Below are positions 32,484-58,340 of a stretch of DNA of 64,000 nt, one piece after another (the stretch's first letter is position 1; each line of letters begins with the position of its first letter). Made by a program: the position numbers and the translations under genes. The stretch spans positions 685,281-749,280 of the forward strand of contig NZ_KK020675.1 of the NCBI RefSeq assembly GCF_000307775.2, read 5' to 3'. Source of the stretch: Stutzerimonas stutzeri KOS6 (GTDB lineage Bacteria; Pseudomonadota; Gammaproteobacteria; Pseudomonadales; Pseudomonadaceae). Under the pieces are notes generated by a model, which worked only from the letters and a program-made list of their open reading frames with translations, was not told the DNA's origin and made no database searches.

Positions 32484-35459
32484 ATGAACATGCATCAGAG
32501 CTCTCCCGAGGCCGCCACCGGTCATATCGGAAAGTCCCAGCGCCGCGTCGAGGACACCGCCCTGCTGCGCGGGCTTGGCCGTTATGCCGATGATGTCGCC
32601 ACGCCGCCCGGCACGCTGCACGCCGCTATCGTCCGCTCGCCTCACGCCCACGCCCGGGTGCTTTCCGTCGATGCCTCCGTCGCGCTGACCATGCCCGGCG
32701 TGCACGGCGTGCTGACCGGCGAGGACGTCAAGCGCTGGGCCAATCCGTTCCCGGTCGGTGTGCGCGCACCGATGGAGCATTGGTGCCTGGCGGTGGACAA
32801 GGTGCGCTACGTCGGCGAACCGGTCTGCGTGGTGATCGCCGATGACCGCTATCTGGCTGAAGACGCACTGGATGCGGTGAAGGTGGAATACGAGCCGCTG
32901 CCGGCCATCGTCGATCCGGAAGCCGCCACTGCCGAAGACGCGCCGGTGCTGCACGAGGCGGTCGGCAGCAACGTGGTCAACGAGCGCCACTTCCGCTACG
33001 GCGAGCCCGAGGAGGCCTTCGCCAAAGCCGCAAAGCGGGTCTCGATCAAGGTTCACTTCCCGCGCAATTCCTGCACGCCCATCGAGTGCTACGTGGTGCT
33101 CGGCCAGTACCAGCCGGCCACCGGGACCTACGACGTGCTGTCCAATTTCCAGGGCCCCTACGCCCTGCACTCGGTCATGTCGCGCGCGCTGAACGTGCCC
33201 GCCAATCGCCTGCGCCTGCGCACCCCGCCGGATTCGGGCGGCAGTTTCGGCATCAAGCAGGGCGTGTTCCCCTATGTCGTGCTCATGGGGCTGGCGGCGC
33301 GCAAGGTCGGCGCCCCGGTGAAATGGGTGGAGGACCGCCTGGAACACCTGCAAGCGAGCTCCAGCGCGACCAACCGGGTCTGCGAAATCGAGGCGGCGGT
33401 GGAAGCCGACGGCCGCGTAGTGGCGCTCCGGTACGACCAGATCGACGACTGCGGCGGCTACCTGCGCGCCCCGGAGCCGGCCACCTTCTATCGCATGCAC
33501 GGCAACCTGACCGGCGCCTACGCGATCCGCAACCTGCTGGTGCGTAACCGCGTGGTGCTGACGAACAAGGTGCCGAGCGGCCTGAACCGCGGTTTTGGCG
33601 GTGGTCAGGTGTATTTTTCGCTGGAGCGGCTGATGCATCAGGTCGCCGTGGAGCTGGGCCTCGATCCGCTCGAGGTGATCCGCCGCAACCTCGTCCCCGC
33701 CGGCGTGTTTCCCTACCGCGCCGCGGCCGGTGCGCTACTCGATTCCGGCGATTACCCGGCCACGGTCGACCTGGCGGTACGCGAAGGCGGTCTCGACGAA
33801 CTGCTGCGCCGCCGCGAGCAGGCGCGCGCCGAGGGTCGCATCTATGGCATCGGCTACACCGCCGTGGTCGAGCCATCGATCTCCAACATGGGCTACATCA
33901 CCGTCGCGATGACGCCCGAAGAGCGGCGCAAGGCCGGACCGAAGAACGGCGCGGTGAGCACCGCCACGGTAAGCGTCGACCCGCTGGGTAGTGTCAGCGT
34001 GCTCGTCGCCTCGACGCCGCAGGGCCAGGGTCATCAGACGGTGGCCGCGCAGATCGTCGCCGAAGTACTCGGCGTGGCGCTCGAAGGCATCAGCGTCAAT
34101 GTCGAGCTGGACACCGGCAAGGACGCCTGGTCGATCGCCTCGGGCAACTATTCCAGCCGCTTCGCCGGCGCTGTCGCCGGGGCCGTCTACAACGCGGCGC
34201 TGCGCATCCGCGAGCGCATGGCCGGCATCGCCGCGGCCATGTGGAACGTGCAGGCCGAAGAGGTGCGCTTCGCCGGCGGCAAGGTGTTCGTCGAGGACGG
34301 GCCGAGCCAGCCGTTCCACCGCATCGCCGGGGCCACCCACTGGTCGCCCGGGCTGCTGCCCGACGGCGAGCTCGGCGGCCTGCGCGAGACTGCATTCTGG
34401 ACCCCGCCGCAGCTGGCCGCACCGAGCGACGAAGACTGCATCAACAGCTCGCTGTGCTACGGCTTCATCTTCGACATCTGCGCGGTGGAAATCGACCGGA
34501 TCACCGGCGAAGTACACATCGATCGTTACGTCACCTGCCACGATGCCGGGCGCATCCTCAATCCGATGCTGGTCGACGGGCAGATCCGCGGCGGCTTCAC
34601 CCAGGGACTGGGCGTGGCGCTGATGGAAGAGTTCGCCTATGCCAACGATGGCAGCTTCCTCTCCGGTACCTTCGCCGACTACCTGGTGCCGACCGCGCCG
34701 GAAGCGATCGAACCGCTGATCCTGCACATGGAAACGCCCTCCCCGTTCACCCCGCTGGGCGCCAAGGGCGTCGGCGAAGGCAACAACATGAGCACGCCGG
34801 TGTGCGTCGCCAATGCCGTGGCCGATGCGCTCGGCCGCTCGGACATCCGCCTGCCACTGACGCCGTCGCGGGTGCGCACGATGATCGGCATCGACGAGCC
34901 CCCGGCGCCCGAGGGCATGGTGCTCGAGGCGCCCAAGGTGGCGGGCGGCTCCAGCCTGCAAGCCGAGGATTCGGTGGAAATCCCCGCCTCGCCGCAGGAG
35001 GTCTACGACGCCCTGCTCGACCCGGAAACACTGAAGGCGATCATCCCCGGCTGCCACGCCCTGGAGCTGGAGAGCGAGAACCACTACCGCGCCGACGTTA
35101 CCGTGGGCGTCGGCATGATCCGCGCGCGCTTCGCCGCCCGGGTCGGCCTGACCGACCTCGACCCGCCCCGTTCGCTGAAGCTGTCCGGCTCGGGCAACAG
35201 CCCCATGGGCTCGGCCACCGGCAGTGCCAGGGTGCGCTTCGTCGAGCTGGACAACGGTCACACACGCCTCGAATACGTCTATGACGCCGCAGTCAGCGGC
35301 AAGGTCGCCGCGGTCGGCGGGCGCATGCTGCAAAGCGCCTCGAAGGTGATCATCGGGCAGATCTTCAGCCGCCTGGCGCAGCGCCTGACCGGCGCGCCGG
35401 TACGCAGCGGCCTGTGGCAGCGCCTGCTCGGGCTGTTCGGCAAAGGAGGTGCACAATGA
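32484..35459 (+). CDS. hmfA: molybdenum hydroxylase large subunit (2-furoyl-CoA dehydrogenase HmfA-like) with C-terminal CoxG-like domain
   Basis: 991 residues from the ATG at 32484 (AAGAG upstream). Residues about 20-815 are a xanthine-dehydrogenase-family molybdopterin subunit: RVEDTALLRGLGRYADDV at the start, molybdopterin loops (PPDSGGSFGIKQG; STPQGQGHQTVAAQI) and the base Glu in GAKGVGEG near 764. From about 830 to 975 a second domain (SVEIPASPQEVYDALLDPET; IPGCHALE) is of the SRPBCC/CoxG type, normally a separate protein. Probably hydroxylates 2-furoyl-CoA at C5 with the next two subunits. A thiophene- or other aryl-CoA substrate is possible. The family call is firm; the substrate is inferred from context. 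Confidence 0.78.
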   Translation: MNMHQSSPEAATGHIGKSQRRVEDTALLRGLGRYADDVATPPGTLHAAIVRSPHAHARVLSVDASVALTMPGVHGVLTGEDVKRWANPFPVGVRAPMEHWCLAVDKVRYVGEPVCVVIADDRYLAEDALDAVKVEYEPLPAIVDPEAATAEDAPVLHEAVGSNVVNERHFRYGEPEEAFAKAAKRVSIKVHFPRNSCTPIECYVVLGQYQPATGTYDVLSNFQGPYALHSVMSRALNVPANRLRLRTPPDSGGSFGIKQGVFPYVVLMGLAARKVGAPVKWVEDRLEHLQASSSATNRVCEIEAAVEADGRVVALRYDQIDDCGGYLRAPEPATFYRMHGNLTGAYAIRNLLVRNRVVLTNKVPSGLNRGFGGGQVYFSLERLMHQVAVELGLDPLEVIRRNLVPAGVFPYRAAAGALLDSGDYPATVDLAVREGGLDELLRRREQARAEGRIYGIGYTAVVEPSISNMGYITVAMTPEERRKAGPKNGAVSTATVSVDPLGSVSVLVASTPQGQGHQTVAAQIVAEVLGVALEGISVNVELDTGKDAWSIASGNYSSRFAGAVAGAVYNAALRIRERMAGIAAAMWNVQAEEVRFAGGKVFVEDGPSQPFHRIAGATHWSPGLLPDGELGGLRETAFWTPPQLAAPSDEDCINSSLCYGFIFDICAVEIDRITGEVHIDRYVTCHDAGRILNPMLVDGQIRGGFTQGLGVALMEEFAYANDGSFLSGTFADYLVPTAPEAIEPLILHMETPSPFTPLGAKGVGEGNNMSTPVCVANAVADALGRSDIRLPLTPSRVRTMIGIDEPPAPEGMVLEAPKVAGGSSLQAEDSVEIPASPQEVYDALLDPETLKAIIPGCHALELESENHYRADVTVGVGMIRARFAARVGLTDLDPPRSLKLSGSGNSPMGSATGSARVRFVELDNGHTRLEYVYDAAVSGKVAAVGGRMLQSASKVIIGQIFSRLAQRLTGAPVRSGLWQRLLGLFGKGGAQ

Positions 35460-36283
35460 AACCGGCCGCATTCGAATACGTTCGCGTCGCCAACAAGCGC
35501 GAGGCGCTGGAAATCCTCGCCGAGCACGGCGAACAGGCACGGATCATCGCCGGCGGCCAGTCGCTGATGGCGGTGTTGAACATGCGCCTGACACAGCCGA
35601 AGGTGCTGATCGACATCAACCACACCGACGACCTGCATGGCCTCACGGTCGAGCGCGGCCACCTGAAGGTCAGTGCCGCGGTGCGCCAGGTCGAGCTGAT
35701 GGACCGCGCCAGCCTCGCCGACGAAGTGCCGCTGCTGGCCCGCGCACTGCCGTGGATCGGCCACTTCCAGACGCGCAACCGCGGCACCGTGTGTGGCTCG
35801 GTGGCACACGCCGACCCCAGCGCCGAAATTCCGCTGTGCCTGGTCACCCTTGGCGGCCGGGTGGTGCTCGAGTCGCTCAAGGGCAAGCGGCGCGAGGTGC
35901 CCGCCGCAGAATTCTTCCAGGGCGTACTGACCACCGCCCGGCGCCCGGACGAGCTGGTCAGCGAGGTGCACTTCCCGCTGGCCGATCCGACGGTGCGCTA
36001 CCGCTTCCGCGAAGTGGCCATGCGACACGGCGACTTCGCCCTGGTGGCTCTCGCTGCCTGCATCCGCGAGGACGCGGTCGAACTCGGCATCGGCGGCGTC
36101 TCCGACCGCCCGGTGCTGCGCCGCCTGCCGCGCGGTGAGGGTTTGCCCGACGCACTCAACGCTTTCGCCTGGTCGCTGGGCGCCCAGGACGATGTACACG
36201 CCAGCGCGGCGTACCGGCGCCATCTGGTGCGCGAGCTCGGCCAGCAACTCATCGAGGAACAAGACCATGCGCGCGCCAGCTGA
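35456..36283 (+). CDS. hmfB: molybdenum hydroxylase FAD subunit (HmfB-like)
   Basis: 275 residues, CoxM family. AAAGGAGGT precedes the ATG, which overlaps the large-subunit stop (ATGA). FAD pyrophosphate loop IIAGGQSLMAVLNMRL near residue 30 and TRNRGTVCGSVAHADP near 105. It lacks the extra 4Fe-4S-binding insertion of 4-hydroxybenzoyl-CoA reductase, which speaks for an oxidative hydroxylase. Transfers electrons from the Fe-S subunit to the acceptor. Confidence 0.8.
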   Translation: MKPAAFEYVRVANKREALEILAEHGEQARIIAGGQSLMAVLNMRLTQPKVLIDINHTDDLHGLTVERGHLKVSAAVRQVELMDRASLADEVPLLARALPWIGHFQTRNRGTVCGSVAHADPSAEIPLCLVTLGGRVVLESLKGKRREVPAAEFFQGVLTTARRPDELVSEVHFPLADPTVRYRFREVAMRHGDFALVALAACIREDAVELGIGGVSDRPVLRRLPRGEGLPDALNAFAWSLGAQDDVHASAAYRRHLVRELGQQLIEEQDHARAS

Positions 36284-36806
36284 CCAACGTTTTCCCGTCC
36301 GCCTGAAGCTCAACGGGCGCGACCGCCAGGGCCATGCCGAGCCGCGCATGCAACTGTGCGACTTCCTTCGTCACGAGTTGGGCGCCACCGGTGTGCATGT
36401 CGGCTGCGAGCACGGCGTCTGCGGCGCCTGCACGGTGCTGGTCGACGGTGTCGCCTCGCGCTCCTGCCTGATGCTTGCGGTGCAGGCCCACGAGCGGTGC
36501 ATCGACACCGTCGAGTCGCTGGCCCGCGATGACGTGATGAACGACCTGCAGCAGGCCTTCAGCCGTCATCACGCGCTGCAATGCGGCTTCTGCACCAGCG
36601 GCATCCTGATGTCCTGCGTGGAATTCCTCGAGCGCGTGGCCGAGCCGGACGAGGCCCAGGTACGCGACATGCTGTCCGGCCACCTGTGCCGCTGCACCGG
36701 CTACACCGGCATGGTCCAGGCGGTGCTCGAAGTGGCGCAACAACGCCAGGCTTCGCGACAGCAAGCCCCACAACAACAAGAACCATCGGAGAGCACTCAT
36801 GTTTGA
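36267..36806 (+). CDS. hmfC: molybdenum hydroxylase 2Fe-2S subunit (HmfC-like)
   Basis: 179 residues, CoxS family. Plant-type 2Fe-2S motif CEHGVCGACTVLVDG and the second, helical cluster CGFCTSGI...CRCTGYTG. Overlaps the FAD-subunit gene by 17 bp and the ligase gene by 8 bp. C-terminal tail is Gln-rich (QQAPQQQEP). Confidence 0.82.
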   Translation: MRAPADQRFPVRLKLNGRDRQGHAEPRMQLCDFLRHELGATGVHVGCEHGVCGACTVLVDGVASRSCLMLAVQAHERCIDTVESLARDDVMNDLQQAFSRHHALQCGFCTSGILMSCVEFLERVAEPDEAQVRDMLSGHLCRCTGYTGMVQAVLEVAQQRQASRQQAPQQQEPSESTHV

Positions 36807-38331
36807 TTTGGGACGCAGCTTTCTCGCCGCGGTGGAGCGCCGCCCCGAGGCGGTAGCAATCAGTGACGGCGAACTGAAGAAGACCTATGCGGCCTGGTTC
36901 GACGACATCCAGCGCACAGCCCACGGGCTCGAGCGTCTCGGCCTCGGCCAGGGCGACCACCTGGTGGCCGTGATGCAGAACCGCTGGCAGATGGCGACGC
37001 TGCACTGGGCCTGCCAGTTCAGCGGCATCGTCATGACCCCGCTGAACTGGCGCTGCACGGCCGAAGACCTGGCCTGGTGCCTGGCCGATGCCGATGCCCG
37101 TGCGCTGGTCCACGACGACTCCGCCGCCGAAGCGGTAATGGCCTGCGGCGAACTGCAGATTCCGTGCATCGCCGTGGGCGCGTCGCTGGCCGGCGGCGCG
37201 CTGAGCTTCGAACAGCTGTGCGCCGAGGCGCCGGCCGAAACCATCCTGCGCGCCGGTCCCGAGGACTGGTCGCTGATGCTCTATACCTCCGGCACCACCA
37301 GCCGGCCCAAGGGCGTGCCGCGCCGGCACCGCGCCGAACGCGCGGCGGCGGTGGCGCACGTGGCGCAGAACCTCTATGGCCACGAGGAATGCACCCTCGG
37401 CGTGATGCCGCTGTATCACACCATGGGCGTGCGCTCGCTGCTGTCGATGGCCCTCATCGACGGACACTTCGTCTGCGTGCCGAAATTCGACGTCGAAGCC
37501 ACGCTGGAGGCCATCGAGCGTGAAAAGATCAGCAATCTGTACCTGGTGCCGACCCTCTATCACATGCTCATCGAGCACCCGGCGTTCAGCGCCGAGCGGG
37601 TCGCCAGCGTACGCAAGATCGGCTTCGCCGGCGCGCCCATGAGCGATGGCCTGATGCGCCGGGTCGAGGCGGCCTTCCAGCCCGAACTGTTCGTCAACCA
37701 TTACGGCAGCTCGGAGATCTACACCTTCACCATCGACCAGCTCGCGGCACGCAAGCCCGGCTCGTCGGGCCGCTGCGCACTGAACCAGCGGATTCGCGTG
37801 GTCGGCCTCGATGCCCAGTCGCCGTCCCAGTTCGCCAAGCCCAACGAGGAAGGCCAGATCATCGCCGACCTGGCCAGCGACGAAGCCTTCGAGGGCTACT
37901 GGAAGCGCCCCGACGCCGATGCCAAGTCGCTGCGCGAGGGCTGGTACTTCACCGGCGACACCGGCTATTTCGATGACGACGGCGACCTCTTCGTCACCGG
38001 CCGGGTCGACGACCTGATCATCACCGGCGGCGAGAACGTCAGCCCGGCGGAGATCGAGAACACGCTCTCGCTGCATCCCGCGGTCGAGGAAGTCGCGGTG
38101 GTCGGCCTGCCCGACGAACAGTGGGGCAAGCTGATCGCCGCCTTCATCAAGCTGCGCTACCCGGTCAGCGAAGAAGAACTCGACGCGCACTGCGTCGCCT
38201 CCGGCCTGGCGCGCTTCAAGCGCCCGCGCCGCTACGAATTCATCGAGCAGATTCCCAAATCCCCCGTCGGCAAGATCCTGCGCCGCGTGCTGGTGGCCCA
38301 GTACGGAGACGTACTCAAGGCCGCCAATTGA
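36799..38331 (+). CDS. hmfD: acyl-CoA ligase (2-furoate-CoA ligase HmfD-like)
   Basis: 510 residues, ANL superfamily. A3 motif LYTSGTTSRPKGVPRRH near 158, A5 YGSSE near 302, A8 hinge GRVDDLIITGGENVSPAEIE near 406, A10 lysine in PKSPVGKILRR near 490. Close in overall sequence style to 4-chlorobenzoate/benzoate-CoA ligases. Would activate furoate (or a similar ring acid) to its CoA thioester with ATP. Position directly behind a Mo-hydroxylase and before an ECH enzyme is the hmfABCDE order. Confidence 0.78.
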   Translation: MFDLGRSFLAAVERRPEAVAISDGELKKTYAAWFDDIQRTAHGLERLGLGQGDHLVAVMQNRWQMATLHWACQFSGIVMTPLNWRCTAEDLAWCLADADARALVHDDSAAEAVMACGELQIPCIAVGASLAGGALSFEQLCAEAPAETILRAGPEDWSLMLYTSGTTSRPKGVPRRHRAERAAAVAHVAQNLYGHEECTLGVMPLYHTMGVRSLLSMALIDGHFVCVPKFDVEATLEAIEREKISNLYLVPTLYHMLIEHPAFSAERVASVRKIGFAGAPMSDGLMRRVEAAFQPELFVNHYGSSEIYTFTIDQLAARKPGSSGRCALNQRIRVVGLDAQSPSQFAKPNEEGQIIADLASDEAFEGYWKRPDADAKSLREGWYFTGDTGYFDDDGDLFVTGRVDDLIITGGENVSPAEIENTLSLHPAVEEVAVVGLPDEQWGKLIAAFIKLRYPVSEEELDAHCVASGLARFKRPRRYEFIEQIPKSPVGKILRRVLVAQYGDVLKAAN

Positions 38332-38356
38332 AGCCCATTCGACAAGAGGAAAGACC

Positions 38357-39160
38357 ATGAACGACAGCAACCTCGAACAGTTTCTCGCCAGCGAATTCGA
38401 CGGCTTCACCGTTGAACTGGATACCGCTCGCGAGCGCGCCGACATCATTCTCGGGCGCCCGCCGTATAACGTCATCGCCATGAGCCAGCGCGAGACGCTG
38501 CGCCAGGTATTCGAGGCGCTCGATGCGCATCCCGGCGTGCGTGTGATCGTGCTGCGTGCCCAGGGTGAGCATTTCTCCAGCGGCGGGGACATCAGGGGCT
38601 TCCTCGAGGCCTCGCCGGAGCACGTCTCCAAACTGGCCTGGAACGTCGCCGCGCCGGAGCGCTGCAGCAAGCCGGTGATCGTCGCCAACCGCGGCTACAC
38701 CTTTGGCGTCGGCTTCGAACTGTCGCTGGCCTGCGACTTCCGCATCGCCTCGGAAACCGCCCGCTACGCACTGCCCGAGCAGAATCTGGGGCAGATCCCC
38801 GGCTCCGGCGGTTCGGCACGCCTGCAGAAGATGATCGGCATCACCCGCACCAAGCACATGGTCATGCGCGCCAAGCGGGTCACCGGCCAACAGGCCTATG
38901 ACTGGGGCTTCGTCACCGAATGCGTGCCGGACGCCGAGCTGGAAAGCACGGTCGATGCGCTGGTCGACGAACTGCGCCGCTTCTCGCCGCTGGCCCAGCG
39001 CACCGCGAAGAAGCTGATCAACGACAACGAGGATGCGCCGCTGAAGGTCGCCATCGAGATGGAAGGCCACTGCTACAGCCGCCTGCGCAGCTCGGCCGAC
39101 TTCAAGGAAGGCGTCGAGGCATTCCACGGCAAGCGGCCAGCGGTTTTCCGCGGCGAATAA
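38357..39160 (+). CDS. hmfE: enoyl-CoA-hydratase-family enzyme (2-oxoglutaroyl-CoA hydrolase HmfE-like)
   Basis: 267 residues, crotonase fold. Oxyanion-hole strands GEHFSSGGDIRGF and GYTFGVGFELSLACDFRIAS are conserved; the C-terminus HCYSRLRSSADFKEGVEAF is typical of ring-processing crotonases. In the furoate pathway HmfE handles the ring-opened/lactone product of 5-hydroxy-2-furoyl-CoA and releases 2-oxoglutarate. AGAGGAAAG lies shortly before the ATG. Confidence 0.76.
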   Translation: MNDSNLEQFLASEFDGFTVELDTARERADIILGRPPYNVIAMSQRETLRQVFEALDAHPGVRVIVLRAQGEHFSSGGDIRGFLEASPEHVSKLAWNVAAPERCSKPVIVANRGYTFGVGFELSLACDFRIASETARYALPEQNLGQIPGSGGSARLQKMIGITRTKHMVMRAKRVTGQQAYDWGFVTECVPDAELESTVDALVDELRRFSPLAQRTAKKLINDNEDAPLKVAIEMEGHCYSRLRSSADFKEGVEAFHGKRPAVFRGE

Positions 39161-39260
39161 GCCCCGCGGCGGATGACCGCCGCCTGCACGCGTGCCACCC
39201 GGCCCCGGGTGGCACGCGGCGAACGAGCGAACGCAAACAACAACAAGCGAAGGCGTTGCC

Positions 39261-40487
39261 ATGACCCAGAATCTCTCCCACCCAGCCGTGGGCAAATCCC
39301 CCGCCACCGGCGAGCCCACGCTGCGCCGGGCGTTCAATTCCAAGTCCATCAGTGCCGGCGTGGTGGCCGCGCTGTTCGGTTGCACCGGGCCGGCCCTGGT
39401 GGTGATCAACGCCGCCGAAGCCGGACGCCTGAGCAATGCCCAGACGGTCGCCTGGCTGTTCGCGATCTACGTGCTCGGTGGGTTGATCAGCCTGTTCCTG
39501 GCGCTGCGCTACCGGCAACCGATCTGTGGCGCCTACACCATTCCCGGCGCCGCGATTCTCGCGGCCTCGCTCACCGTCATTCCTTTCAGCGATGCAGTAG
39601 GCGCGTTCATCATGAGCGGCTTGCTGGTCTTCGTGCTGGGTATCACCGGGTTGATCGGCCGACTGATGCGCTGGCTGCCGATGCCGATCGTGATGGCGAT
39701 GATCGCCGGGGCGTTGATCCGCTTCGCCACGGGTGCCATCGACGCCATCGTCAGCGCGCCGCTGATTGCCGGTGTCGCCGCACTGAGCTTCTTTGTGGTC
39801 ACACGACTCACTCGCGCCGTGCCGCCGGTGCTGGTCGCCGGTGTGGTCGGGCTGGTGATGGCCTTCGCCCTCGGCCAGCTACAGCCGGCCGATGTGAACA
39901 TCGCCTGGGTGATGCCCGCACTCACCGCACCGAGCTTTTCGCTCGATGCCTTCCTGGCCATCACCATTCCGCTCACGGCGCTGGTGATCGGTGCGGAAAA
40001 CGCCCAGGCCACCGGCGTGCTGATGGCCGAAGGGTATCGTCCGCCGGTCAATGCGATGACCGTCATCAGCGGCATCGGCGGCGTGCTGGCCGGCCTGCTG
40101 GGGGGCCACAACGCCAATATCGCCGGGCCGATGACGGCGATCTGCTCGTCCGAGCAGGCCGGCGACGATCCGCGGTTGCGTTATGGCGCGGCGCTGGTCA
40201 ACGGCGTGCTGTTTGCCCTCTTCGGTCTGTTCGCCGGTCTCGCGGTGCCGTTCATCCTGGCTTTCCCGAAGGCGTTGATCGTGGTGGTGGCCGGGCTGGC
40301 CATGATCGGAGTGCTGCTCGGCTCGCTGCAGCAGGCGTTCCAGAAAGGCGGTGCCTGTCAGATCGGCGCTTTCGTGGCGCTGGCAGTGGCCATGAGCCAA
40401 TTCTCGCTGCTGGGCATCAGCTCGCCGTTCTGGGCGCTGCTGTCCGGCGTCGCGGTGTCCTGGTTGCTCGGCGAGATCGAACGCTGA
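39261..40487 (+). CDS. BenE-family benzoate/H+ symporter
   Basis: 408 residues, about 11-12 membrane segments, BenE family (FGCTGPALVVINAAEAG; PICGAYTIPGAAILAAS; GGHNANIAGPMTAICSS). Probably imports the ring carboxylic acid degraded here; benzoate itself is possible, but no benzoate dioxygenase is nearby. GAAGG lies 8 nt before the ATG. Its last 13 codons and the REP element behind it are tandemly duplicated. Confidence 0.85.
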   Translation: MTQNLSHPAVGKSPATGEPTLRRAFNSKSISAGVVAALFGCTGPALVVINAAEAGRLSNAQTVAWLFAIYVLGGLISLFLALRYRQPICGAYTIPGAAILAASLTVIPFSDAVGAFIMSGLLVFVLGITGLIGRLMRWLPMPIVMAMIAGALIRFATGAIDAIVSAPLIAGVAALSFFVVTRLTRAVPPVLVAGVVGLVMAFALGQLQPADVNIAWVMPALTAPSFSLDAFLAITIPLTALVIGAENAQATGVLMAEGYRPPVNAMTVISGIGGVLAGLLGGHNANIAGPMTAICSSEQAGDDPRLRYGAALVNGVLFALFGLFAGLAVPFILAFPKALIVVVAGLAMIGVLLGSLQQAFQKGGACQIGAFVALAVAMSQFSLLGISSPFWALLSGVAVSWLLGEIER

Positions 40488-43074: not shown

Positions 43075-43112
43075 TGGCCCGGCCTCCAAAATCAACCGAG
43101 GAGAACAACAAA

Positions 43113-48104: not shown

Positions 48105-48108
48105 TGCG

Positions 48109-49728: not shown

Positions 49729-50346
49729 GACTCACCTTTCTTGTTGTTATCGAACAAATGACCGGGCGAAACGGACAGCACCGCTGTCACGCACAGGCGA
49801 TTTTTCACGCGGCGCCAACTGCGATACGCGAACCACGAATGGCCTTCGTCTGCCTCCTCGGCATTTAGCAGGGCATCAAGCGATGCACGGATGACGCTTT
49901 ATTCGCGCAGGGATGTTTATCGCGGGCATACGACTGACGAGCGCGGCCTGGCAGCCGCGACCGCGACGAGAATGGGCAAAAGCATGCGCGCGGTGACATG
50001 AAAGGTTTGCAGGCGCTCGGCGAACGTCCATACACGGGCCTCATTTATTGTTCTTGTGGCCGACCCGGCGACCTTCGACAACTGCGGGCTCGGCTATCTA
50101 TCGCTGGGCATGAACGTAGCGCAAGGCCTCTATCTCGGCCATTAGGGAATAATGATGCAGAGGATCACGGATCGTTATGGGGTGCGCGGACGATTTCCGA
50201 AATCGATGAAAGCCGGTGCCGACGAATCTTCAAATCAATAGCGCGGGACATCGCCGGTTCTGATGGCGCGCATCAGAAAACCTTAATAGGCAGACCTGCG
50301 TGACGCTCCTAGCATGGCCAAAACAATAACCACGAGAGAACTCGCC
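49729..50346. promoter_or_regulatory. 618-bp divergent control region (dctP operon / ubiD operon)
   Basis: No convincing gene. The perfect palindrome CGATTTC-C-GAAATCG at 50191-50205 lies about 140 bp before the UbiD start and is a good candidate regulator site. The region separates the leftward TRAP operon from the rightward decarboxylase operon and is the likely target of the LysR (53417) or AraC (57477) regulator. No clear -10/-35 pair was identified. Confidence 0.4.
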
Positions 50347-51783
50347 ATGCCGTCCATGCCCTCTTCCTCGGCCGAGCCCGCTACCGCTGCCCTGCCTGTC
50401 GGCGCCACCCTGCGCGGCTGGCTGGATCATCTGCAGAACACTCAGCGACTGAGCGTGATCCGCCCAGGCACCGCGCTGCGCTTCGGCGTTGCAGCCATCG
50501 CCAACCGCCTGGACGGTCAGAGTGCGTCGCTGTTCCTGCAGCCCGAAGGGCATCCGATTCCGGTGATTTCGGGACTGCTTTCGGACCGTCAGTGGATGGC
50601 CGAGGCGATGGGTGTCGAACCAGGCCAGGTACTCGCCCGCTTCGAGCATGCCAGCCTCGAGCCGCTGCCCTGGCAGGAAGTGACCGAAGCCGCTTGCCAA
50701 CAGGTGGTGCACCGCGAGGTCGACCTCCTCGCGCAGTTGCCGATCCCCACGCATAACGAACACGACAGCGGCGCCTACATCACCGCCGGTCTGCTGATCA
50801 CCCGCAACCCGCGTACCGGCGTACAGAACGTGTCGATTCACCGCCTGCAGGTCAGTGGCCCCAACCGCCTCGGCGCGCTGCTGCTGCCGCGCCATACCCT
50901 GGCTTACTTTCAGGAAACCGAGCGCAACAACGAGGACCTCGAAGTCGCCGTGGTGGTCGGCTGTGACCCGCTGACACTGATGGCCTCGCAGGCGATCGTG
51001 CCGATTGACCATGATGAGTTGGAAATCGCTGGTGCGCTCCATGGCCGGCCACTGCCGGTAGCCAAGTGCGTCACCAATCGTATTCGTGTACCGGCGGAAG
51101 CCGAGATCGTCATCGAGGGGCGCCTGCTGGCCAACGCACGCGAGGCTGAGGGGCCTTTCGGCGAGTTCCCGCAGTATTACGGTGAGCGCGCCGAGCGGCA
51201 TGTGATCGAGGTCGATGCCGTCACCCACCGCCAGGCGCCGATGTTCCATACCATCGTCGGCGGCGGCCTGGAGCACCTGCTGCTGGGCGGCATTCCGCGG
51301 GAGGCGACCATGCTCGCGCACCTGCGCCGCAGTTTCCCTTGCGTGCGTGACGTCCATCTGGCGCGCGGCGGCGTGTGTCGCTATCACCTGTACGTGCAGA
51401 TCGACAAGCGCTCGGAAGGCGAGGCGAAGAACGTCATCCTCGGTGCCCTTGGGGGCCATTACGACATCAAGCACGTGGTGGTGGTCGACACCGATGTCGA
51501 CATCCACAACCCCACCGAAGTCGAGTGGGCAGTGGCGACGCGTTTCCAGGCCGACCGCGATCTGGTGCTCATCCACGAATCCCAGGGTTCCAAGCTCGAC
51601 CCGTCGACCCGCGACGGCGTTGGCTCGAAGATGGGCTTCGACGCCACCGTGCCGCTGGCCGCACCGCCGATGCGCTTCAAGCGCATCCGCGTGCCGGGGG
51701 AGACCGAAGTGGACCTCGCCGCGGTCAGTCAGCCGGCCGACGCCGACTGGCAGCAACTGTTCGGCCAGCCAAACGATCGCTGA
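50347..51783 (+). CDS. hmfF: UbiD-family prenylated-FMN decarboxylase (HmfF-like)
   Basis: 478 residues from ATG 50347 (GAGAA 7 nt upstream); ATG 50314 is a weaker alternative. The UbiD catalytic Arg-Glu-Glu set is visible: Arg in VSIHRLQVSG (about 165) and the two Glu of EGPFGEFPQYY (about 268 and 273). The family decarboxylates unsaturated or aromatic acids with prFMN, which the UbiX homologue at 54354 would make. In furan loci HmfF turns 2,5-furandicarboxylate into 2-furoate. Other UbiD substrates (pyrrole-2-carboxylate, hydroxybenzoates) cannot be excluded. Confidence 0.75.
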   Translation: MPSMPSSSAEPATAALPVGATLRGWLDHLQNTQRLSVIRPGTALRFGVAAIANRLDGQSASLFLQPEGHPIPVISGLLSDRQWMAEAMGVEPGQVLARFEHASLEPLPWQEVTEAACQQVVHREVDLLAQLPIPTHNEHDSGAYITAGLLITRNPRTGVQNVSIHRLQVSGPNRLGALLLPRHTLAYFQETERNNEDLEVAVVVGCDPLTLMASQAIVPIDHDELEIAGALHGRPLPVAKCVTNRIRVPAEAEIVIEGRLLANAREAEGPFGEFPQYYGERAERHVIEVDAVTHRQAPMFHTIVGGGLEHLLLGGIPREATMLAHLRRSFPCVRDVHLARGGVCRYHLYVQIDKRSEGEAKNVILGALGGHYDIKHVVVVDTDVDIHNPTEVEWAVATRFQADRDLVLIHESQGSKLDPSTRDGVGSKMGFDATVPLAAPPMRFKRIRVPGETEVDLAAVSQPADADWQQLFGQPNDR

Positions 51784-51952: not shown

Positions 51953-53395
51953 ATGCAGCAGGCACGACATTTCATCGACGGACAGTGGTGCGACGACGGC
52001 CAATGGGCTGACAGTCTCGATCCCGCCAACAGCGAGCTGATCGGGCGCTTCGCCGACGGCGGCGAACAACAGGCCCGCGCCGCGGTCGAGGCCGCCGCAC
52101 GGGCCTTCGAGAACCCGCAATGGTCGCAAAATCCACGCGTGCGTCAGCAGGTAATGCTGGACTGGGCGGCTGCGCTGAAGAGCCACCAGGACGAACTGGC
52201 GAGCCTGCTCACCCGCGAGAATGGCAAGCCGCTGGCGCAATCGCGCGGTGAGATCGGCGGCGCCATATCGGAAATCCTCTATTACGCCGGCCTTGCGCGG
52301 CACAACCCCGGCCATGTGCTGGAAGTCGCCCCCGGCGAGTTCTCCACCATGCTGCGTGAACCGGCCGGCGTGGCCGGGCTGATTATTCCGTGGAATGCCC
52401 CGGCGGTGCTCCTGGCCCGCGCACTGGCGCCGGCGCTGGCGGCCGGCTGCACCTGCGTAGTCAAGCCGGCACCGCAGACGGCACTGTTCAACGCCGCCTT
52501 CCTCACCCCGCTGCTGGAATTGCCGAGCCTGGCGCCCGGGGTGGTCAACCTGTTCGCCGAGACCGGGCACGCCGGGGCCGCTTTTCTTGCCGCCACGCCC
52601 AAGGTCGACGTGCTCAGCTTCACCGGCTCTACCGCGACTGGCACGCAGATCATGCGTGATGCCGCGCCGACCATGAAGAAACTGTCGCTTGAGCTGGGTG
52701 GCAAATCCTGTTGTGTGGTGCTGGAGGACGCGGACATCGCCGCGGTGGCGCCGAAGCTCGCTGCCGCTGCGACCATCATCTCCGGGCAGCAGTGCACCGC
52801 CGCCCGCCGTGTGCTGGTGCATGCCAGCCGCGCAGCGGAAATGAAGCAGGCGCTGGCCGCGGCGCTGGGCGAAGTGCGCCTGGGCCACGGGCTCGAGGTG
52901 GCCACACAGATGGGCCCGCTGATCGACTGGCGTTCGCGCGATCTCGTCGAGCAACGCATTCGCGAGTCGATGGACTGCTGCGACGAGGTGTTGCTGGCAG
53001 GCGCTCGGCCAGGCGATGCGCTGGGCCGCGGCGCTTTCCTCTCGCCAACGCTGATCGCGCATCAGGACAGCGGCGCATTCTTCTGCCAGGAGGAAATTTT
53101 CGGCCCTCTGCTGGTGCTGGAAACATTCGAAGATGAGGCCGAGGCTGTGCGCCGGGCCAACCACAGCGAGTTCGGCCTCTCGGCAAGCGTCTGGACCCGC
53201 GACGGTGCGCGGGCCATGCGCCTGGCCCGCGCCCTGCGCAACGGCACCGTGTGGATCAACGATCACAACAAGCTGTTCGCCGAGGCGGAAACCGGCGGCT
53301 ATCGCAAAAGCGGGCTGGGGCGCCTGCACGGCTACGACGCACTGCTGGATTTTACAGAGCTCAAGCACGTCTACCAGAATGTCGGCACTCTATAG
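51953..53395 (+). CDS. NAD(P)-dependent aldehyde dehydrogenase
   Basis: 480 residues, full length. AGGAG 6 nt before the ATG. Catalytic Glu in LELGGKSCCV and Cys in SGQQCTAARR (about 280), Asn in IIPWNAPA, and EEIFGPLL. Oxidises an aldehyde to the acid; furfural, 5-formylfuroate or an aromatic aldehyde would fit the locus. The preceding 169 bp (51784-51952) show no other feature. Confidence 0.88.
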   Translation: MQQARHFIDGQWCDDGQWADSLDPANSELIGRFADGGEQQARAAVEAAARAFENPQWSQNPRVRQQVMLDWAAALKSHQDELASLLTRENGKPLAQSRGEIGGAISEILYYAGLARHNPGHVLEVAPGEFSTMLREPAGVAGLIIPWNAPAVLLARALAPALAAGCTCVVKPAPQTALFNAAFLTPLLELPSLAPGVVNLFAETGHAGAAFLAATPKVDVLSFTGSTATGTQIMRDAAPTMKKLSLELGGKSCCVVLEDADIAAVAPKLAAAATIISGQQCTAARRVLVHASRAAEMKQALAAALGEVRLGHGLEVATQMGPLIDWRSRDLVEQRIRESMDCCDEVLLAGARPGDALGRGAFLSPTLIAHQDSGAFFCQEEIFGPLLVLETFEDEAEAVRRANHSEFGLSASVWTRDGARAMRLARALRNGTVWINDHNKLFAEAETGGYRKSGLGRLHGYDALLDFTELKHVYQNVGTL

Positions 53396-53416
53396 GTCGG
53401 TATCGACGAGGTTGAA

Positions 53417-54367
53417 ATGGAACTGCGCCAGCTGAAGTACTTCACCTGCCTGTTCGAAGAAGGGTCCGTGACCAGGGCGGCGCAGCGGCTGAATATCGTG
53501 CAGCCGGCCCTGTCGATGCAGATCGCCAAGCTGGAGGAGGAACTCGGCCAGCCATTGTTCGAGCGCACCCCCAAGGGCATGACCCCGACCGAGGCCGGCG
53601 TACAGGCCTATCGCCTGTTCATGCCGATCCTCGGCGAGCTGCTCGAAGCGCGGCAGACGCTGATCGATCGCAGCGGCCAGATCGGCGGGAGGATCAACGC
53701 CGGGCTGATCGCCTCGGCCGCCAACCAGGCACTGGCCAGCACCCTGGCCTACTTCGTCGAGCACCACCCGGACGTCGAGCTGCAGGTCAGCTACGGCTAC
53801 AGCCAGGACCTGATCGACCGCGTGTTGTCCGGCGCGCTGGATTTCGCGGTGATCAACCAGAGTTTTCAGCAGGAACACTTGCACCGTACCGACATCCTCG
53901 ACGAGGAACTGCTGGTGGCGACCGGTGCCACGACCCGGCTGCGGCTGCCCACGCCGATTCCGCTCAGCGCACTGGGTGGCCTCAAGTTGGTGCTGCCTTC
54001 GCGCCGTCATGGTTTGCGTATGGTCATCGACCAGGCGCTTGCCGCGCAGAGCCTGGAGCTGACGCCGCACCTGGAGCTCGACGACCTCACGGTGATCGAG
54101 AGCTTTCTGCGCCGCAGCGACTGGATCAGCGTACTGCCGGCCACCGTGCTGCAACGCGGTCTGGAAGAAGGCGCCTTGCGCGCCTATCCGCTGGCGGCCC
54201 CCGGGATCACGCGGCGCATGGTCTGCGTGCACGACAGCCGTCGCCCGCTGACCCCTGCCGCGACGCTGTTCATCGACATCATCAGCAAGACGCTGGCCAC
54301 TGCACTCAATGCCATCCACTTCTACAAGGAAGGCGCCATTCAGGAATCCGACCATGATCTCAACTAG
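53417..54367 (+). CDS. LysR-type transcriptional regulator of the hmf-like locus
   Basis: 316 residues. Winged helix at 1-60 (MELRQLKYFTCLFEEGSVTR; RLNIVQPALSMQIAKLEEEL), then the effector domain. Opens like the GbpR/CbbR-type aromatic-acid regulators. Unusually it lies in the same direction as, and within, the operon it probably controls (21 nt after the ALDH stop, 14 bp overlap with the UbiX gene). Confidence 0.88.
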   Translation: MELRQLKYFTCLFEEGSVTRAAQRLNIVQPALSMQIAKLEEELGQPLFERTPKGMTPTEAGVQAYRLFMPILGELLEARQTLIDRSGQIGGRINAGLIASAANQALASTLAYFVEHHPDVELQVSYGYSQDLIDRVLSGALDFAVINQSFQQEHLHRTDILDEELLVATGATTRLRLPTPIPLSALGGLKLVLPSRRHGLRMVIDQALAAQSLELTPHLELDDLTVIESFLRRSDWISVLPATVLQRGLEEGALRAYPLAAPGITRRMVCVHDSRRPLTPAATLFIDIISKTLATALNAIHFYKEGAIQESDHDLN

Positions 54368-54986
54368 CCCCCGTCCGCAGCGACTCGTCATCGGCATCTC
54401 CGGCGCGTCCGGCGCAATCTACGGGGTGCGCCTGCTTGAGCTGCTGCGCGACACGCCAATCGAGACCCACCTGGTAGTCTCGAAGTCGGCGCTGATCACG
54501 CTGTCCCACGAAACCGGGCTGACCTGGTCGCAGCTCAAGCCGATGGCCACCGTGTGCTACTCCAATCAGGACATCGGCGCGGCCATCGCCAGCGGCTCGT
54601 TCAAGACCATGGGCATGATCGTCGCGCCCTGCTCGGTGCGTTCGATGTCGGAGATCGCCAGCGGCGTGACATCCACTCTGCTGACGCGAGCCGCCGATGT
54701 GATGCTCAAGGAGCGTCGGCGCCTGGTATTGATGGTGCGCGAGACGCCGCTGCACCGAAATCACCTGCGCACAATGACCGAGCTGGCCGAGCTCGGCGCC
54801 ATCATCGCTCCGCCCGTGCCGGCTTTCTATGCCAGACCGGCGTCATTGGCAGAGATGGTCGACCACACGCTCGGCCGCGTGCTCGACATGTTCGATATCG
54901 AACTCGGGGTGGTCAGGCGCTGGCGCGAGACGCCGGAAGACCTGCCTACCCTCGACGAGGTCGAGGCGATGACCTGCGAGCGCTGA
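54354..54986 (+). CDS. UbiX-family flavin prenyltransferase (HmfG-like)
   Basis: 210 residues. Flavin site VIGISGASGAIYGVRLLELL, MIVAPCSVRSMSEIASGV and MVRETPLHRNHLRTM are the UbiX signatures. Prenylates FMN with dimethylallyl phosphate for the UbiD enzyme encoded upstream in the same operon. The start at 54354 overlaps the LysR gene. A dedicated UbiX beside UbiD argues the decarboxylase is the active pathway enzyme and not the ubiquinone one. Confidence 0.85.
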   Translation: MISTSPRPQRLVIGISGASGAIYGVRLLELLRDTPIETHLVVSKSALITLSHETGLTWSQLKPMATVCYSNQDIGAAIASGSFKTMGMIVAPCSVRSMSEIASGVTSTLLTRAADVMLKERRRLVLMVRETPLHRNHLRTMTELAELGAIIAPPVPAFYARPASLAEMVDHTLGRVLDMFDIELGVVRRWRETPEDLPTLDEVEAMTCER

Positions 54987-55027: not shown

Positions 55028-55807
55028 TCAGCGGGCCAGCGTCGCCTGGAACTCGCCGATCAGTTCCAGTACGCGTGCGCGGGCCTGGTTCTGCGGGAAG
55101 TGCCGACAGTGCTCGAGCAAAAGCGTCCGGCAAGGGCCGCCAACCTTGCGGGCGATGGTTTCCAGCTGTGCCGCGGTGGCGAACTCGTCATCCTGGCCCT
55201 GGATGGCGAGCACCGGCACCTGGATGCGGGGCAGTGCCGGATAGAGATTCCAGCTAGCAAAGTCCGGCTCGAGCCAGGTTTCGCTCCAGCCGCGGAAGGC
55301 GCCGTCGAGGTTGTCGCCATGGTAGGCGTGCAGCCGTTCACGCAGGTCGCCACGGGCGTAGGCCTTCACCGTGCGACGCACGCCTTCGATACTCGCCGGT
55401 TCGACATCGACATGCGGAGCGAGTACCACGACGCCGACGATGCGAGGGTCCTGACGCGCAGCATAGGCGAGCGCGATGGAGGCACCGTCGCTGTGACCGA
55501 TCAGAATCACCGGTTCGAGCGCCAGGCCGTCGAGTACGCGCTCGAGCTCGTCCGGCCCGTCCTGGCTCAGGTAGTCGAGCGGGCGCGGCAGCGTCACCGG
55601 GCTGGAGCGACCGTAGCCCTGCCGGCTGTAGGCCAGTACCGGGGCGGCACAGGCGTCGGCCAGCTGCGCAGGAAAGTCCTTCCACAGGTCGAGGCTGCCG
55701 AGCCCCTCGTGCAACAACACGAGCACGGGGCCGGTCGAATGCCGCGGACGCAGAAGCTGATATTCGAGCCTGGCAACGGCGGTCTCGATAAACTGTCGGT
55801 GCGTCAT
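55028..55807 (-). CDS. alpha/beta hydrolase
   Basis: 259 residues. Oxyanion loop HEGLGSLDLW, nucleophile GHSDGAS (Ser about 98), Asp in GQDDEF and His in EHCRHFP complete the triad. The start at 55807 (MTHRQFIETAV) is taken over the longer frame; its ribosome site is weak. Convergent with UbiX and divergent from XdhC. An ester or lactone hydrolase role is possible. Confidence 0.82.
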   Translation of the reverse strand: MTHRQFIETAVARLEYQLLRPRHSTGPVLVLLHEGLGSLDLWKDFPAQLADACAAPVLAYSRQGYGRSSPVTLPRPLDYLSQDGPDELERVLDGLALEPVILIGHSDGASIALAYAARQDPRIVGVVVLAPHVDVEPASIEGVRRTVKAYARGDLRERLHAYHGDNLDGAFRGWSETWLEPDFASWNLYPALPRIQVPVLAIQGQDDEFATAAQLETIARKVGGPCRTLLLEHCRHFPQNQARARVLELIGEFQATLAR

Positions 55808-55895
55808 CACATGGGAACCTGTCTGCCTGAGGGTTCGAAGGTTAACCGATTTGCGTGGCGCGTCCGGCGACCGCGCATGCCAGAGGAACTCGCAC

Positions 55896-56861
55896 ATGCG
55901 CCAGCTTGATCTTCAGGTGCTGGATACCGCCTTGCAGTGGGGCCTTGAAGGCCACGCGCTCTGGCTGTGTACCGTACTCTCCACTTATGGCTCGGCGCCG
56001 CGCGCGCCCGGCGCGATGCTGGTGGCGCGCGCCGACGGCCAGTTCGTCGGTTCGCTGTCCGGCGGCTGTGTCGAGGAAGCCTTCCTCGAGGCGCTGGCTG
56101 GCGGCGAACTGCGGGCGCCGGCGCAGATCGTTCGCTACGGCGAGAGCGATGACGAACGCCAGCGGCTGCGGCTGCCGTGCGGTGGCATTCTCCAGGTGCT
56201 GGTCGAACACCGTACAGCGGACGAGGCCTGGATCGATCACCTGCGCGATCTGCACGATGCCCTGCTCGGGCAGCGTCGGCTGGTCCGCGACCTCGATCTC
56301 ACCAGCGGCGCATTCAGGCTGGTACCCGATCAGGGCGGCGAAGTAACCCAAGTCCAGGCAGAGCACGTGCGTGTACGTATCGGTCCGGCACTGCGCCTGG
56401 TATTAGCCGGCCTGTCGCCAGTAGCCGAGTACTGCGCCAGCTTCGCCCGCGCCATCGGCTGCGAGGTGATCGCCTGTGACCCGCGAGAGGAAATGAATGG
56501 GCGCGCGCCCGACGGTGTCCGATTCCATCCGCAGATGCCGTCGGAATTCATCGCCGCCGGGCACTGCCACGAGGCTACCGCCGTGGTCGCCCTTACCCAC
56601 GACCCGCGCATCGATGACCTGGCCCTGATGGAAGCGGTGCGCACTCCCGCCTTCTATATCGGTGCCATGGGTTCGCTGCAGACCTCCACGCGGCGTGCCG
56701 AACGGCTGGCGCGAATCGGCGGCCTGAGTGAAGAACAGATCGCCCGCATCCACATGCCCATCGGCCTCGACCTCGGCAGCAAGACGCCGGCCGAGATTGC
56801 CCTGTCGGTGGTTGCCGACGTGCTGCGCGTCTACCACGGCAAGGCACGCGATGAACTCTGA
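55896..56861 (+). CDS. XdhC/CoxI-family molybdenum-cofactor maturation protein
   Basis: 321 residues; AGAGGA 8 nt before the ATG at 55896. N-terminal XdhC part (LCTVLSTYGSAPRAPGAMLV; SGGCVEEA) and C-terminal Rossmann part (LVLAGLSPVAEYCASFA; FYIGAMGSLQTSTRR). XdhC proteins bind the cofactor and supply its sulfurated form to xanthine-dehydrogenase-family enzymes; here the client should be the hmfABC-like hydroxylase. Confidence 0.9.
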   Translation: MRQLDLQVLDTALQWGLEGHALWLCTVLSTYGSAPRAPGAMLVARADGQFVGSLSGGCVEEAFLEALAGGELRAPAQIVRYGESDDERQRLRLPCGGILQVLVEHRTADEAWIDHLRDLHDALLGQRRLVRDLDLTSGAFRLVPDQGGEVTQVQAEHVRVRIGPALRLVLAGLSPVAEYCASFARAIGCEVIACDPREEMNGRAPDGVRFHPQMPSEFIAAGHCHEATAVVALTHDPRIDDLALMEAVRTPAFYIGAMGSLQTSTRRAERLARIGGLSEEQIARIHMPIGLDLGSKTPAEIALSVVADVLRVYHGKARDEL

Positions 56862-57474
56862 GCCGATGGTAGTGGGCCTGATGCTGGCCGCCGGGCGGGC
56901 CAGTCGCTTCGGCAGCGACAAGCGTCGCGCGCGCCTGGCCGACGGCCGCACGCTGCTGGAGGCGAGCCTGGCCAATGCCGCCGCCGCATTCGACGAGCTA
57001 CTGCTGGTGCTGCGTGATGGCGATGTCATCGACGACCTCTGTCTGCCGCCGCGGGTCCAGGTGCTTCACACGTCCTTGGCCGAACGCGGCCTCGGTGCAA
57101 GCCTGGCGGCCGGTGTCGAGGCCTTGTCGGAGCATCGAGCAGATGCGCTGGCGGTGTTGCTCGGCGACATGCCCTGGCTGGGCACAGAGACTTGTGCCCA
57201 GCTGATCGCCGAGGTCGGCGCCGGGCGCATCGTGCAGCCAGTGCACGACGGCCGCCCTGGACACCCGGTGCTGTTCGGCCGTGCCTTCTGGCCAGCATTG
57301 CGTACCCTCGACGGCGATGAGGGTGCGCGTGGCCTGATCCGCCGCCATGCCGAGCATTACCGGCCGGTGCCGGTCGACGACCCCGGCATCCTGCTTGACG
57401 TCGACCGCCCCACCGACCTCGACGGGCGCACGGCTGCGGCCCCGCCCCCAACCCATCGCCCTGCGAGGATCTAG
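56851..57474 (+). CDS. molybdenum cofactor cytidylyltransferase (MocA-like)
   Basis: 207 residues, MobA/MocA nucleotidyltransferase family. LMLAAGRASRFGSDKR is the nucleotide-binding loop, LLGDMPWL the metal-binding Asp strand, and RPGHPVLFGRAFWPAL a MocA-type motif. Makes the cytosine dinucleotide form of the cofactor used by this hydroxylase family. Overlaps the XdhC gene by 11 bp. Confidence 0.88.
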   Translation: MNSEPMVVGLMLAAGRASRFGSDKRRARLADGRTLLEASLANAAAAFDELLLVLRDGDVIDDLCLPPRVQVLHTSLAERGLGASLAAGVEALSEHRADALAVLLGDMPWLGTETCAQLIAEVGAGRIVQPVHDGRPGHPVLFGRAFWPALRTLDGDEGARGLIRRHAEHYRPVPVDDPGILLDVDRPTDLDGRTAAAPPPTHRPARI

Positions 57475-57476
57475 CC

Positions 57477-58340
57477 ATGTCCACCGCTCAACGTGTCTTT
57501 CACGGCAAATTCGGGCGGGTCGCCCTGCTCGATATGGACCGCCCCCTGGTGACCCACTCGCATCACGAATGCCACGTGCTGGTGAAAGCCTCCGGGGCGG
57601 ACACTTTCTTCAACGTCAATGGCCGCCAGGTGCCGCTGACTGATCGCTGCGCGGTGCTGGTCAACGCCTGGCAACCGCACTATTACGACTTCCAGCCGGG
57701 ATCCGAGCAGACACAGATCCTCGCGCTCTATATCGAACCGGCCTGGCTGGCCGAGGCGCAGCAGTCGCTGGCCCTGAGCGCCCACCCGGGGTTCTTTGCC
57801 CAGCCCTGCATCGAGCTCAGTGCCAAGAACCGGGCGATGGCCGACCAGTTGATCGCCGAGGCTTGCAGCGCCGGGCTGGTGCCGCGCGAGCGCATCGAGT
57901 TCATGCTGTTCGACTTCCTCATCGAGCTGATCGAAGACTACTCGCAGTGGAAACAGCTGCGCCGCCTCGGCGCACAGGTCCGTCAGGGCTTTGGCGATGC
58001 ACGTATCCGCCGCGCCTGTGAGTATCTGCAGACCCATCTGGATGACCCGGATTGCATCAGCAACGCAGCGCAAGCCGCCGGACTGTCGCGCGCGCACTTC
58101 TTCAGCCTGTTTCGCCAGGACACCGGCATGACCCCGACGCTCATGCTCAACGACGCGCGCATGCGCCGCGCCTTTATCTGGCTGGAGCGCGAGCGCAGCG
58201 GCACCCTCGGCCAGCTCGCCGAGAACCTCGGCTTCTCCGAGCAGGGCCACTTCACCCGCTTCTTCCGTCAGCATATAGGGGCGTCCCCAAGCCAGTATCG
58301 GCGAGTGGTGGATAGCTACGGCACGGGCAACAAGGGATGA
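57477..58340 (+). CDS. AraC-family transcriptional regulator
   Basis: 287 residues. N-terminal cupin domain (THSHHECHVLVKASG) and two C-terminal helix-turn-helix motifs (about 200-280; SNAAQAAGLSRAHFFSLFRQ and LGQLAENLGFSEQGHFTRFF). Starts 2 nt after the MocA stop, so co-transcribed with the cofactor genes. Second candidate regulator of the locus. Confidence 0.9.
   Translation: MSTAQRVFHGKFGRVALLDMDRPLVTHSHHECHVLVKASGADTFFNVNGRQVPLTDRCAVLVNAWQPHYYDFQPGSEQTQILALYIEPAWLAEAQQSLALSAHPGFFAQPCIELSAKNRAMADQLIAEACSAGLVPRERIEFMLFDFLIELIEDYSQWKQLRRLGAQVRQGFGDARIRRACEYLQTHLDDPDCISNAAQAAGLSRAHFFSLFRQDTGMTPTLMLNDARMRRAFIWLERERSGTLGQLAENLGFSEQGHFTRFFRQHIGASPSQYRRVVDSYGTGNKG

Follow-up and report, generated by a model that had tools for sequence, protein, structure and literature searches.

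A gene island in the genome of Stutzerimonas stutzeri KOS6 (4.95 Mb) appears to encode a complete hmf-type pathway for the catabolism of furan acids, a reading to which we give a probability of roughly 87%. The island lies at positions 32484–58340 of the 64,000-nucleotide stretch that we analyzed (the window). This kind of cluster is already known; what is added here is a TAXI transporter and a thiamine diphosphate (ThDP) enzyme, which are standing members of the islands in Stutzerimonas. Among the furan acids, 2,5-furandicarboxylate (FDCA) serves as a monomer for plastics; in biomass hydrolysates, furans act as major inhibitors.

Open reading frames and domain searches of the window give 21 open genes across the island. 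hmfABCDE, benE, the TAXI permease, the TAXI binding protein, and the ThDP enzyme are on the plus strand, followed by a short-chain dehydrogenase/reductase (SDR), DctM, DctQ, and DctP on the minus strand, and then by the UbiD end: UbiD, an aldehyde dehydrogenase (ALDH), a LysR regulator, UbiX, an alpha/beta hydrolase (minus strand), XdhC, MocA, and an AraC regulator. All of the genes that the first-pass annotation had named are present as open frames, with the positions and domains that it gave, and its hmf-type reading is supported by the gene order, by the similarity of HmfA–E to annotated hmf clusters, and by the match of UbiD to HmfF. It did not name two genes, the BenE-type transporter (perhaps one of its "uptake systems") and the alpha/beta hydrolase (55028–55807); both are known from other hmf clusters. 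The genes that these loci share keep the same order in eight other Stutzerimonas islands (the copy in genome G143 is divided between two contigs) and in one Halomonas locus, so the arrangement is far beyond chance.

hmfABCDE are consecutive and on one strand, the arrangement that we took to define an hmf cluster. The predicted product of hmfA (32484–35459) is the molybdenum subunit of furoyl-CoA dehydrogenase; it carries a CoxG domain at its C-terminus (from Pfam) and is 57–62% identical to three annotated HmfA proteins over nearly the full length. The gene is followed on the same strand by hmfB for the FAD subunit (35456–36283; PF00941; 53–61%), hmfC for the 2Fe-2S subunit (36270–36806, start approximate; Fer2/Fer2_2; 54–75%), hmfD for 2-furoyl-CoA synthetase (36799–38331; AMP-binding; 61–63%, with the next best protein in its own genome at 32%), and hmfE for a crotonase-family 2-oxoglutaroyl-CoA hydrolase (38357–39160; ECH_1; 75–78%). 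The comparison that had been suggested as a check on the products of 32484–39160 gave 53–78% identity to three annotated hmf clusters: HmfA–E are 62, 60, 75, 62, and 78% identical to those of Cupriavidus necator NH9; 62, 61, 71, 61, and 75% to those of Paraburkholderia largidicola; and 57, 53, 54, 63, and 75% to those of Paracoccus yeei. We rejected aerobic CO dehydrogenase as the identity of HmfA, with 460 bits to NF040766 (cut-off 950) and 429 bits to TIGR02416 (cut-off 991).

In a search of the Protein Data Bank (PDB), the UbiD protein (hmfF; 50314–51783, plus strand) scored 454 bits against 6h6v and 215 bits against the next enzyme. We take 6h6v to be the structure of HmfF (its record is labelled "3-polyprenyl-4-hydroxybenzoate decarboxylase and related"). 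His321 and Arg329 of the window's UbiD align to residues 296 and 304 of the 6h6v chain. H297 of HmfF is described in PMC7976604 as the residue for furan specificity; His321 would be its counterpart if the numbering is offset by one (chain residue 296, likewise a His, versus H297). By sequence, this UbiD is an HmfF, that is, a predicted FDCA decarboxylase. We also considered HudA, the pyrrole-2-carboxylate decarboxylase, and rejected it: 4ip2 (labelled PA0254) and 7abo scored just 70 and 72 bits.

Could a CoA ligase and a molybdenum hydroxylase serve the island in the same way for a different ring acid, for example pyrrole-2-carboxylate or thiophene-2-carboxylate? Enzymes of the HmfABCD type might accept similar five-membered rings, as for thiophene-2-carboxylate, and among the curated models listed, none reached its cut-off for HmfA–E. 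However, the UbiD scores 454 bits to HmfF and at most 72 bits to the HudA chains, and it is accompanied by a PsfA-type ALDH, LysR, UbiX, the hydrolase, XdhC, and AraC, ordered as in the tested cluster of Pseudomonas umsongensis GO16. We consider another ring acid to be very improbable, and furan acids are our reading of the island throughout.

The first-pass annotation found no GMC oxidase (HmfH) in the island, and this absence extends to the whole genome: its single GMC protein lies outside the island, and two GMC oxidases linked to hmf clusters gave no match to it by tblastn at 1e-10. We propose that the SDR (46022–46780, minus strand; 252 amino acids, 759 bp) takes the place of HmfH. In P. 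umsongensis GO16, deletions showed that PsfG is responsible for the conversion of 5-hydroxymethyl-2-furancarboxylate (HMFCA) to 5-formyl-2-furancarboxylate (FFCA), PsfA for that of FFCA to FDCA, and HmfF for that of FDCA to furoate, as described in PMC12064950, which also cites that HmfH and PsfG never co-occur. In a sample of 398 genomes from the family, 23 contain hmfD: 9 from this genus and 14 from genera g12 and g15 (g15 is presumably Pseudomonas). We examined 13 of these 14 clusters outside the genus and left out one whose contig was too short. Three of the 13, all from g15, include UbiD. An SDR with 55–56% identity to the window's SDR lies ahead of the ALDH in these three, as in the GO16 order. 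(In two of these three, an extra frame of 262 amino acids or a gap of equal size lies between the SDR and the ALDH.) In all three genomes, the SDR at the psfG place is the best genome-wide match of the window's SDR; in the other 10 regions, the best SDR match is at most 33%.

Because of these counterparts at the psfG place in three clusters with ubiD, and the lack of HmfH in the genome, PsfG is the economical identification: the SDR is most likely a PsfG-type HMFCA dehydrogenase that replaces HmfH. Two points weigh against it. The evidence is the place in other clusters, the length, and 55–56% identity to positional counterparts, not similarity to GO16 PsfG itself; and the window's SDR is separated from the ALDH by 5 kb and lies on the opposite strand. 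The ALDH (51953–53395, plus strand; Aldedh domain) is 77–82% identical to its counterparts in the three g15 clusters with ubiD and is probably of the PsfA type, converting FFCA to FDCA. We had also considered that the SDR might be a partner of the ThDP enzyme (a furil reductase with a furoin lyase), and we dropped this as the leading explanation because the SDR is in four of the nine Stutzerimonas islands while the ThDP enzyme is in all nine. The ThDP enzyme, the SDR, and several uptake systems had all been listed as additions to the Cupriavidus locus. This holds for TAXI and ThDP as a standing addition, but the SDR is best read as PsfG replacing HmfH, and DctPQM accompanies the SDR.

The SDR and dctMQP form a variable cassette. 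All four genes are on the minus strand, with DctM at 46842–48107 (start approximate; TIGR00786 above cut-off), DctQ at 48109–48687 (PF04290), and the solute-binding protein DctP at 48745–49728. The cassette is in four of the nine Stutzerimonas islands (the window's, two from S. azotifigens, and that of genome G129) and is absent from the other five. In the PDB search, DctP was closest to 4paf, 4pai, and 4pbh (360 bits; next, 137). These are presumably structures of a protein that binds aromatic acids, with ligands of the benzoate type, an assumption to which a search by gene name added nothing. In Halomonas dongshanensis, the slot between the ThDP enzyme and UbiD (L012, 11784–14475) is occupied by genes for a sodium:solute symporter and an FMN-dependent dehydrogenase; the latter may represent a third type of HMFCA-oxidizing enzyme. 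The Halomonas symporter is 71–74% identical to the symporters of two g15 clusters; in G248, the symporter is located between hmfE and hmfF, which is the place of HmfI in GO16.

At the DNA level, the window's cassette is 87–90% identical to that of G129, while the S. azotifigens cassettes are at 81–90% (for dctM, one of them ties with G129). In contrast, hmfABCD are 91–92% identical to S. azotifigens and S. nosocomialis and 79–82% identical to G129. Since ubiD is also slightly nearer to G129 (87% versus 85–86%), the mosaic in the middle of the island extends beyond the cassette alone. We infer that cassettes have been exchanged by recombination. The island suggests that the HMFCA step can be exchanged as a cassette.

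The TAXI and ThDP genes, all on the plus strand, comprise a fused TRAP-TAXI permease (41116–43074; TIGR02123, 570 bits, cut-off 321), a TAXI solute-binding protein (43107–44105; TIGR02122 above cut-off), and the ThDP enzyme (44170–45807). The PDB relatives of the binding protein (at most 72 bits) are too weak for naming a substrate. The TAXI and ThDP genes are in all nine Stutzerimonas islands and in Halomonas. Nine of the 56 genomes of the genus carry hmfD, and the identical nine carry this ThDP enzyme, with 77–100% identity; since the genes are linked, this co-occurrence cannot be counted as independent evidence that they function together. (Genome G129 carries a second ThDP relative elsewhere, at 52%.) A class-wide sample of 369 genomes contained one further genome with hmfD. 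We also scanned named genomes and kept 80 ThDP loci, with flanks of up to 10 kb and often less. The closest are from S. azotifigens, S. nosocomialis, and S. stutzeri, and the top 6 of the 80 (80–88% identity) are all in hmf islands. The remaining 74 (48–56%; L015–L088, mostly alphaproteobacterial) have no hmfA–E in the available flanks and no clear partner. Among plasmids, there was no ThDP relative at 60% or above and no match to the TAXI binding protein at 1e-30.

Might TAXI and ThDP serve some unrelated 2-oxo acid and be parked in the island as passengers? The ThDP enzyme is missing from the 13 examined clusters outside the genus and from the three annotated plasmid clusters, and the site directly behind TAXI and ThDP accepts other cassettes. 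Also, the ThDP frame is broken in two of the nine islands (L150, from G129, and L152, from strain RM2, G239), in two species but within the same short stretch. These facts favor a passenger and count against a role in the pathway, although the break in RM2 is likely a sequencing error because ubiD and lysR are fragmented there too. On the other hand, the position of TAXI and ThDP is constant in the nine Stutzerimonas islands and Halomonas, while SDR-DctPQM varies. We view a passenger cassette as possible but doubtful.

What would the ThDP enzyme do within the pathway? It is a member of NF006052 (804 bits, cut-off 539), whose name carries no reaction. (We rejected acetolactate synthase: the best model is NF006052, and the acetolactate synthase models among the best 25 of 53 are below their cut-offs.) We fetched the neighborhoods of 20 of the 47 listed relatives in the family sample that are outside islands (51–56% identity). 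In five of these Pseudomonadaceae loci (L161, L162, L163, L165, and L180), the ThDP relative is directly behind HglS (2-oxoadipate dioxygenase/decarboxylase), with a 2-aminoadipate transaminase nearby in four of the five and a D-2-hydroxyglutarate dehydrogenase in two. In another five of the 20 (two of them in one genome), it is directly ahead of a succinate-semialdehyde dehydrogenase (SSADH). In three of four annotated Azospirillum loci, an ALDH is downstream of the ThDP relative (once past a short frame). These neighborhoods suggest a 2-oxo acid decarboxylase that passes an aldehyde to a dehydrogenase; the window's genome has two SSADHs above cut-off. Glu58 (presumably the catalytic glutamate), Arg117, Lys134, Arg243, Arg404, and His483 are invariant across 44 ThDP sequences.

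We tentatively propose that the ThDP enzyme decarboxylates a 2-oxo acid, the simplest candidate being the 2-oxoglutarate that the pathway itself produces, though we rate this at below even odds. A fuller proposal, which we regard as rather doubtful, is that the Stutzerimonas-type pathway continues past 2-oxoglutarate, with the ThDP enzyme yielding succinate semialdehyde and bypassing 2-oxoglutarate dehydrogenase, and that the subfamily also acts on 2-oxo dicarboxylic acids beside HglS, in lysine breakdown. If so, the end product of the pathway may be succinate semialdehyde instead of 2-oxoglutarate.

Several observations weigh against a 2-oxoglutarate decarboxylase. Half of the Pseudomonadaceae relatives (10 of 20) adjoin neither HglS nor that SSADH. 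In the 74 further loci, which are mostly from Alphaproteobacteria, HglS was not found, and there were just two downstream ALDHs, with weak similarity (28 and 37%). And the ThDP enzymes of the hmf islands form a long branch of their own (support 100/100) that is separate from the HglS/SSADH clade. They show 13 fixed differences at positions where at least 85% of the 37 other sequences share one residue. These include F120W; R492 and Y493 are further states found only in the hmf clade. The branch and these residues might indicate another substrate.

We also considered that the enzyme might be a carboligase or lyase of the benzoin type for furan aldehydes, like benzaldehyde lyase, for protection from furfural or for the use of furoin. 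Its strict linkage with the island would fit, W120, R492, and Y493 could suit an aromatic substrate, and the enzyme is distantly related to benzaldehyde lyase (159 bits). However, acetolactate synthases are nearer (249 bits), and the Pseudomonadaceae neighbors of its relatives point toward 2-oxo dicarboxylic acids. We judge a furan-aldehyde enzyme to be unlikely, and we retain 2-oxo acid decarboxylase as our working proposal. The island draws attention to a ThDP subfamily that has no assigned reaction; 2-oxo dicarboxylic acids are the common point of some of its neighborhoods (furan acids, lysine breakdown, SSADH). As a separate observation, the ThDP enzyme behind HglS in Pseudomonadaceae may be an unrecognized step in lysine breakdown.

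Gene content, homology, order, and co-occurrence are observed, and from these we infer all of the substrates in the following pathway. HMFCA would be taken up via DctPQM, oxidized to FFCA by the SDR (the role of PsfG), and then oxidized to FDCA by the ALDH (the role of PsfA). UbiD would decarboxylate FDCA to 2-furoate, using prenyl-FMN supplied by the flavin prenyltransferase UbiX (psfC/hmfG; 54354–54986, plus strand; NF004685 above cut-off). Furan acids would also be imported by TAXI and by the BenE-type aromatic acid/H+ symporter (39252–40487, plus strand; PF03594, TIGR00843 above cut-off), which is a candidate furoate importer and is also found in the P. yeei hmf cluster. HmfD would convert 2-furoate to furoyl-CoA, and HmfABC would hydroxylate the ring, with maturation through two proteins encoded on the plus strand: the XdhC-type molybdenum cofactor maturation protein (psfD; 55893–56861; XdhC domains, position conserved) and the MocA-type molybdenum cofactor cytidylyltransferase (56851–57474; NTP_transf_3; 119 bits to TIGR03310, below the cut-off of 186). 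MocA is missing from three of the nine Stutzerimonas islands (G229, G129, and G064/L011) and from the Halomonas locus, so the cofactor step must happen elsewhere there. The alpha/beta hydrolase and HmfE would open the ring and release 2-oxoglutarate. This hydrolase matches hydrolase models weakly, with scores under the cut-offs, and has a conserved position, at the place of "hyd" in the GO16 cluster. Finally, in the simplest 2-oxo acid option, the ThDP enzyme would convert 2-oxoglutarate to succinate semialdehyde, and the two SSADHs encoded elsewhere in the genome could finish it. The putative regulators, a psfB-type LysR (53417–54367) and an AraC-type protein (57477–58340), are both on the plus strand and were identified by domain searches and by their positions in related clusters.

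The island occupies different chromosomal places in different species. The eight genes that flank it in the window are not at the available flanks of the other eight Stutzerimonas islands, except for one VgrG and, at another island, weak matches to an ABC ATPase (the reach of the downstream flank varies between islands). The Halomonas copy is 74–94% identical per protein over the genes seen, with only half of hmfA included. Because the flanks are not shared and the Halomonas copy is this similar, the island has likely been transferred horizontally. No integrase was found among the part of the window's genes that was scanned. To the left (21701–32235), a carbamoyltransferase, parts of an ABC transporter, and a lyase adjoin the island; downstream, after a TauE gene, comes a type VI secretion locus with genes for Hcp, VgrG, and DUF4123 (59980–63254).

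Literature searches, judged by titles and the openings of abstracts, gave no paper on an hmf island from Stutzerimonas and none that places TAXI or ThDP genes within an hmf cluster; such clusters may be included in a 2021 survey by Donoso et al., which PMC12064950 cites. For Cupriavidus, our comparison is to the annotated plasmid of C. necator NH9, with C. basilensis HMF14 considered through citing papers. NH9 has the hmfABCDE order, UbiD, UbiX, ALDH, and LysR as in the window, but unlike the window it has a GMC oxidase (at the place of HmfH), a transporter of the MFS family, and a binding protein of the TTT type, and this stretch of NH9 has no match to the window's SDR, ThDP, TAXI, or XdhC. 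Pseudomonas (Ectopseudomonas) pseudoalcaligenes CECT 5344, as its locus is described in PMC6678421, resembles the window in hmfABCDE, benE, psfD, and araC; its hmf locus is flanked by mobile elements, and it has neither hmfFG nor hmfH and does not grow on 5-hydroxymethylfurfural. The ThDP 2-oxoglutarate decarboxylase of cyanobacteria, as described in PMC10418658, is alike in the proposed reaction. NF006052 was above its cut-off in none of 14 control genomes, Synechococcus elongatus included (the decarboxylase content of S. elongatus was left aside).

The cluster of P. umsongensis GO16, as presented in PMC12064950, has in common with the window hmfABCDE, hmfF, a short-chain dehydrogenase (PsfG in GO16, the proposed PsfG in the window), PsfA, the LysR regulator psfB, psfC, hyd, psfD, and araC, and both are without hmfH. 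The transporters differ: GO16 has HmfI and HmfT, while the window has BenE, TAXI, and DctPQM. Table 2 of that paper does not include the ThDP enzyme or MocA, and the window's SDR, unlike that of GO16, is on the opposite strand with DctMQP. With this island, the route without HmfH has a second natural layout.

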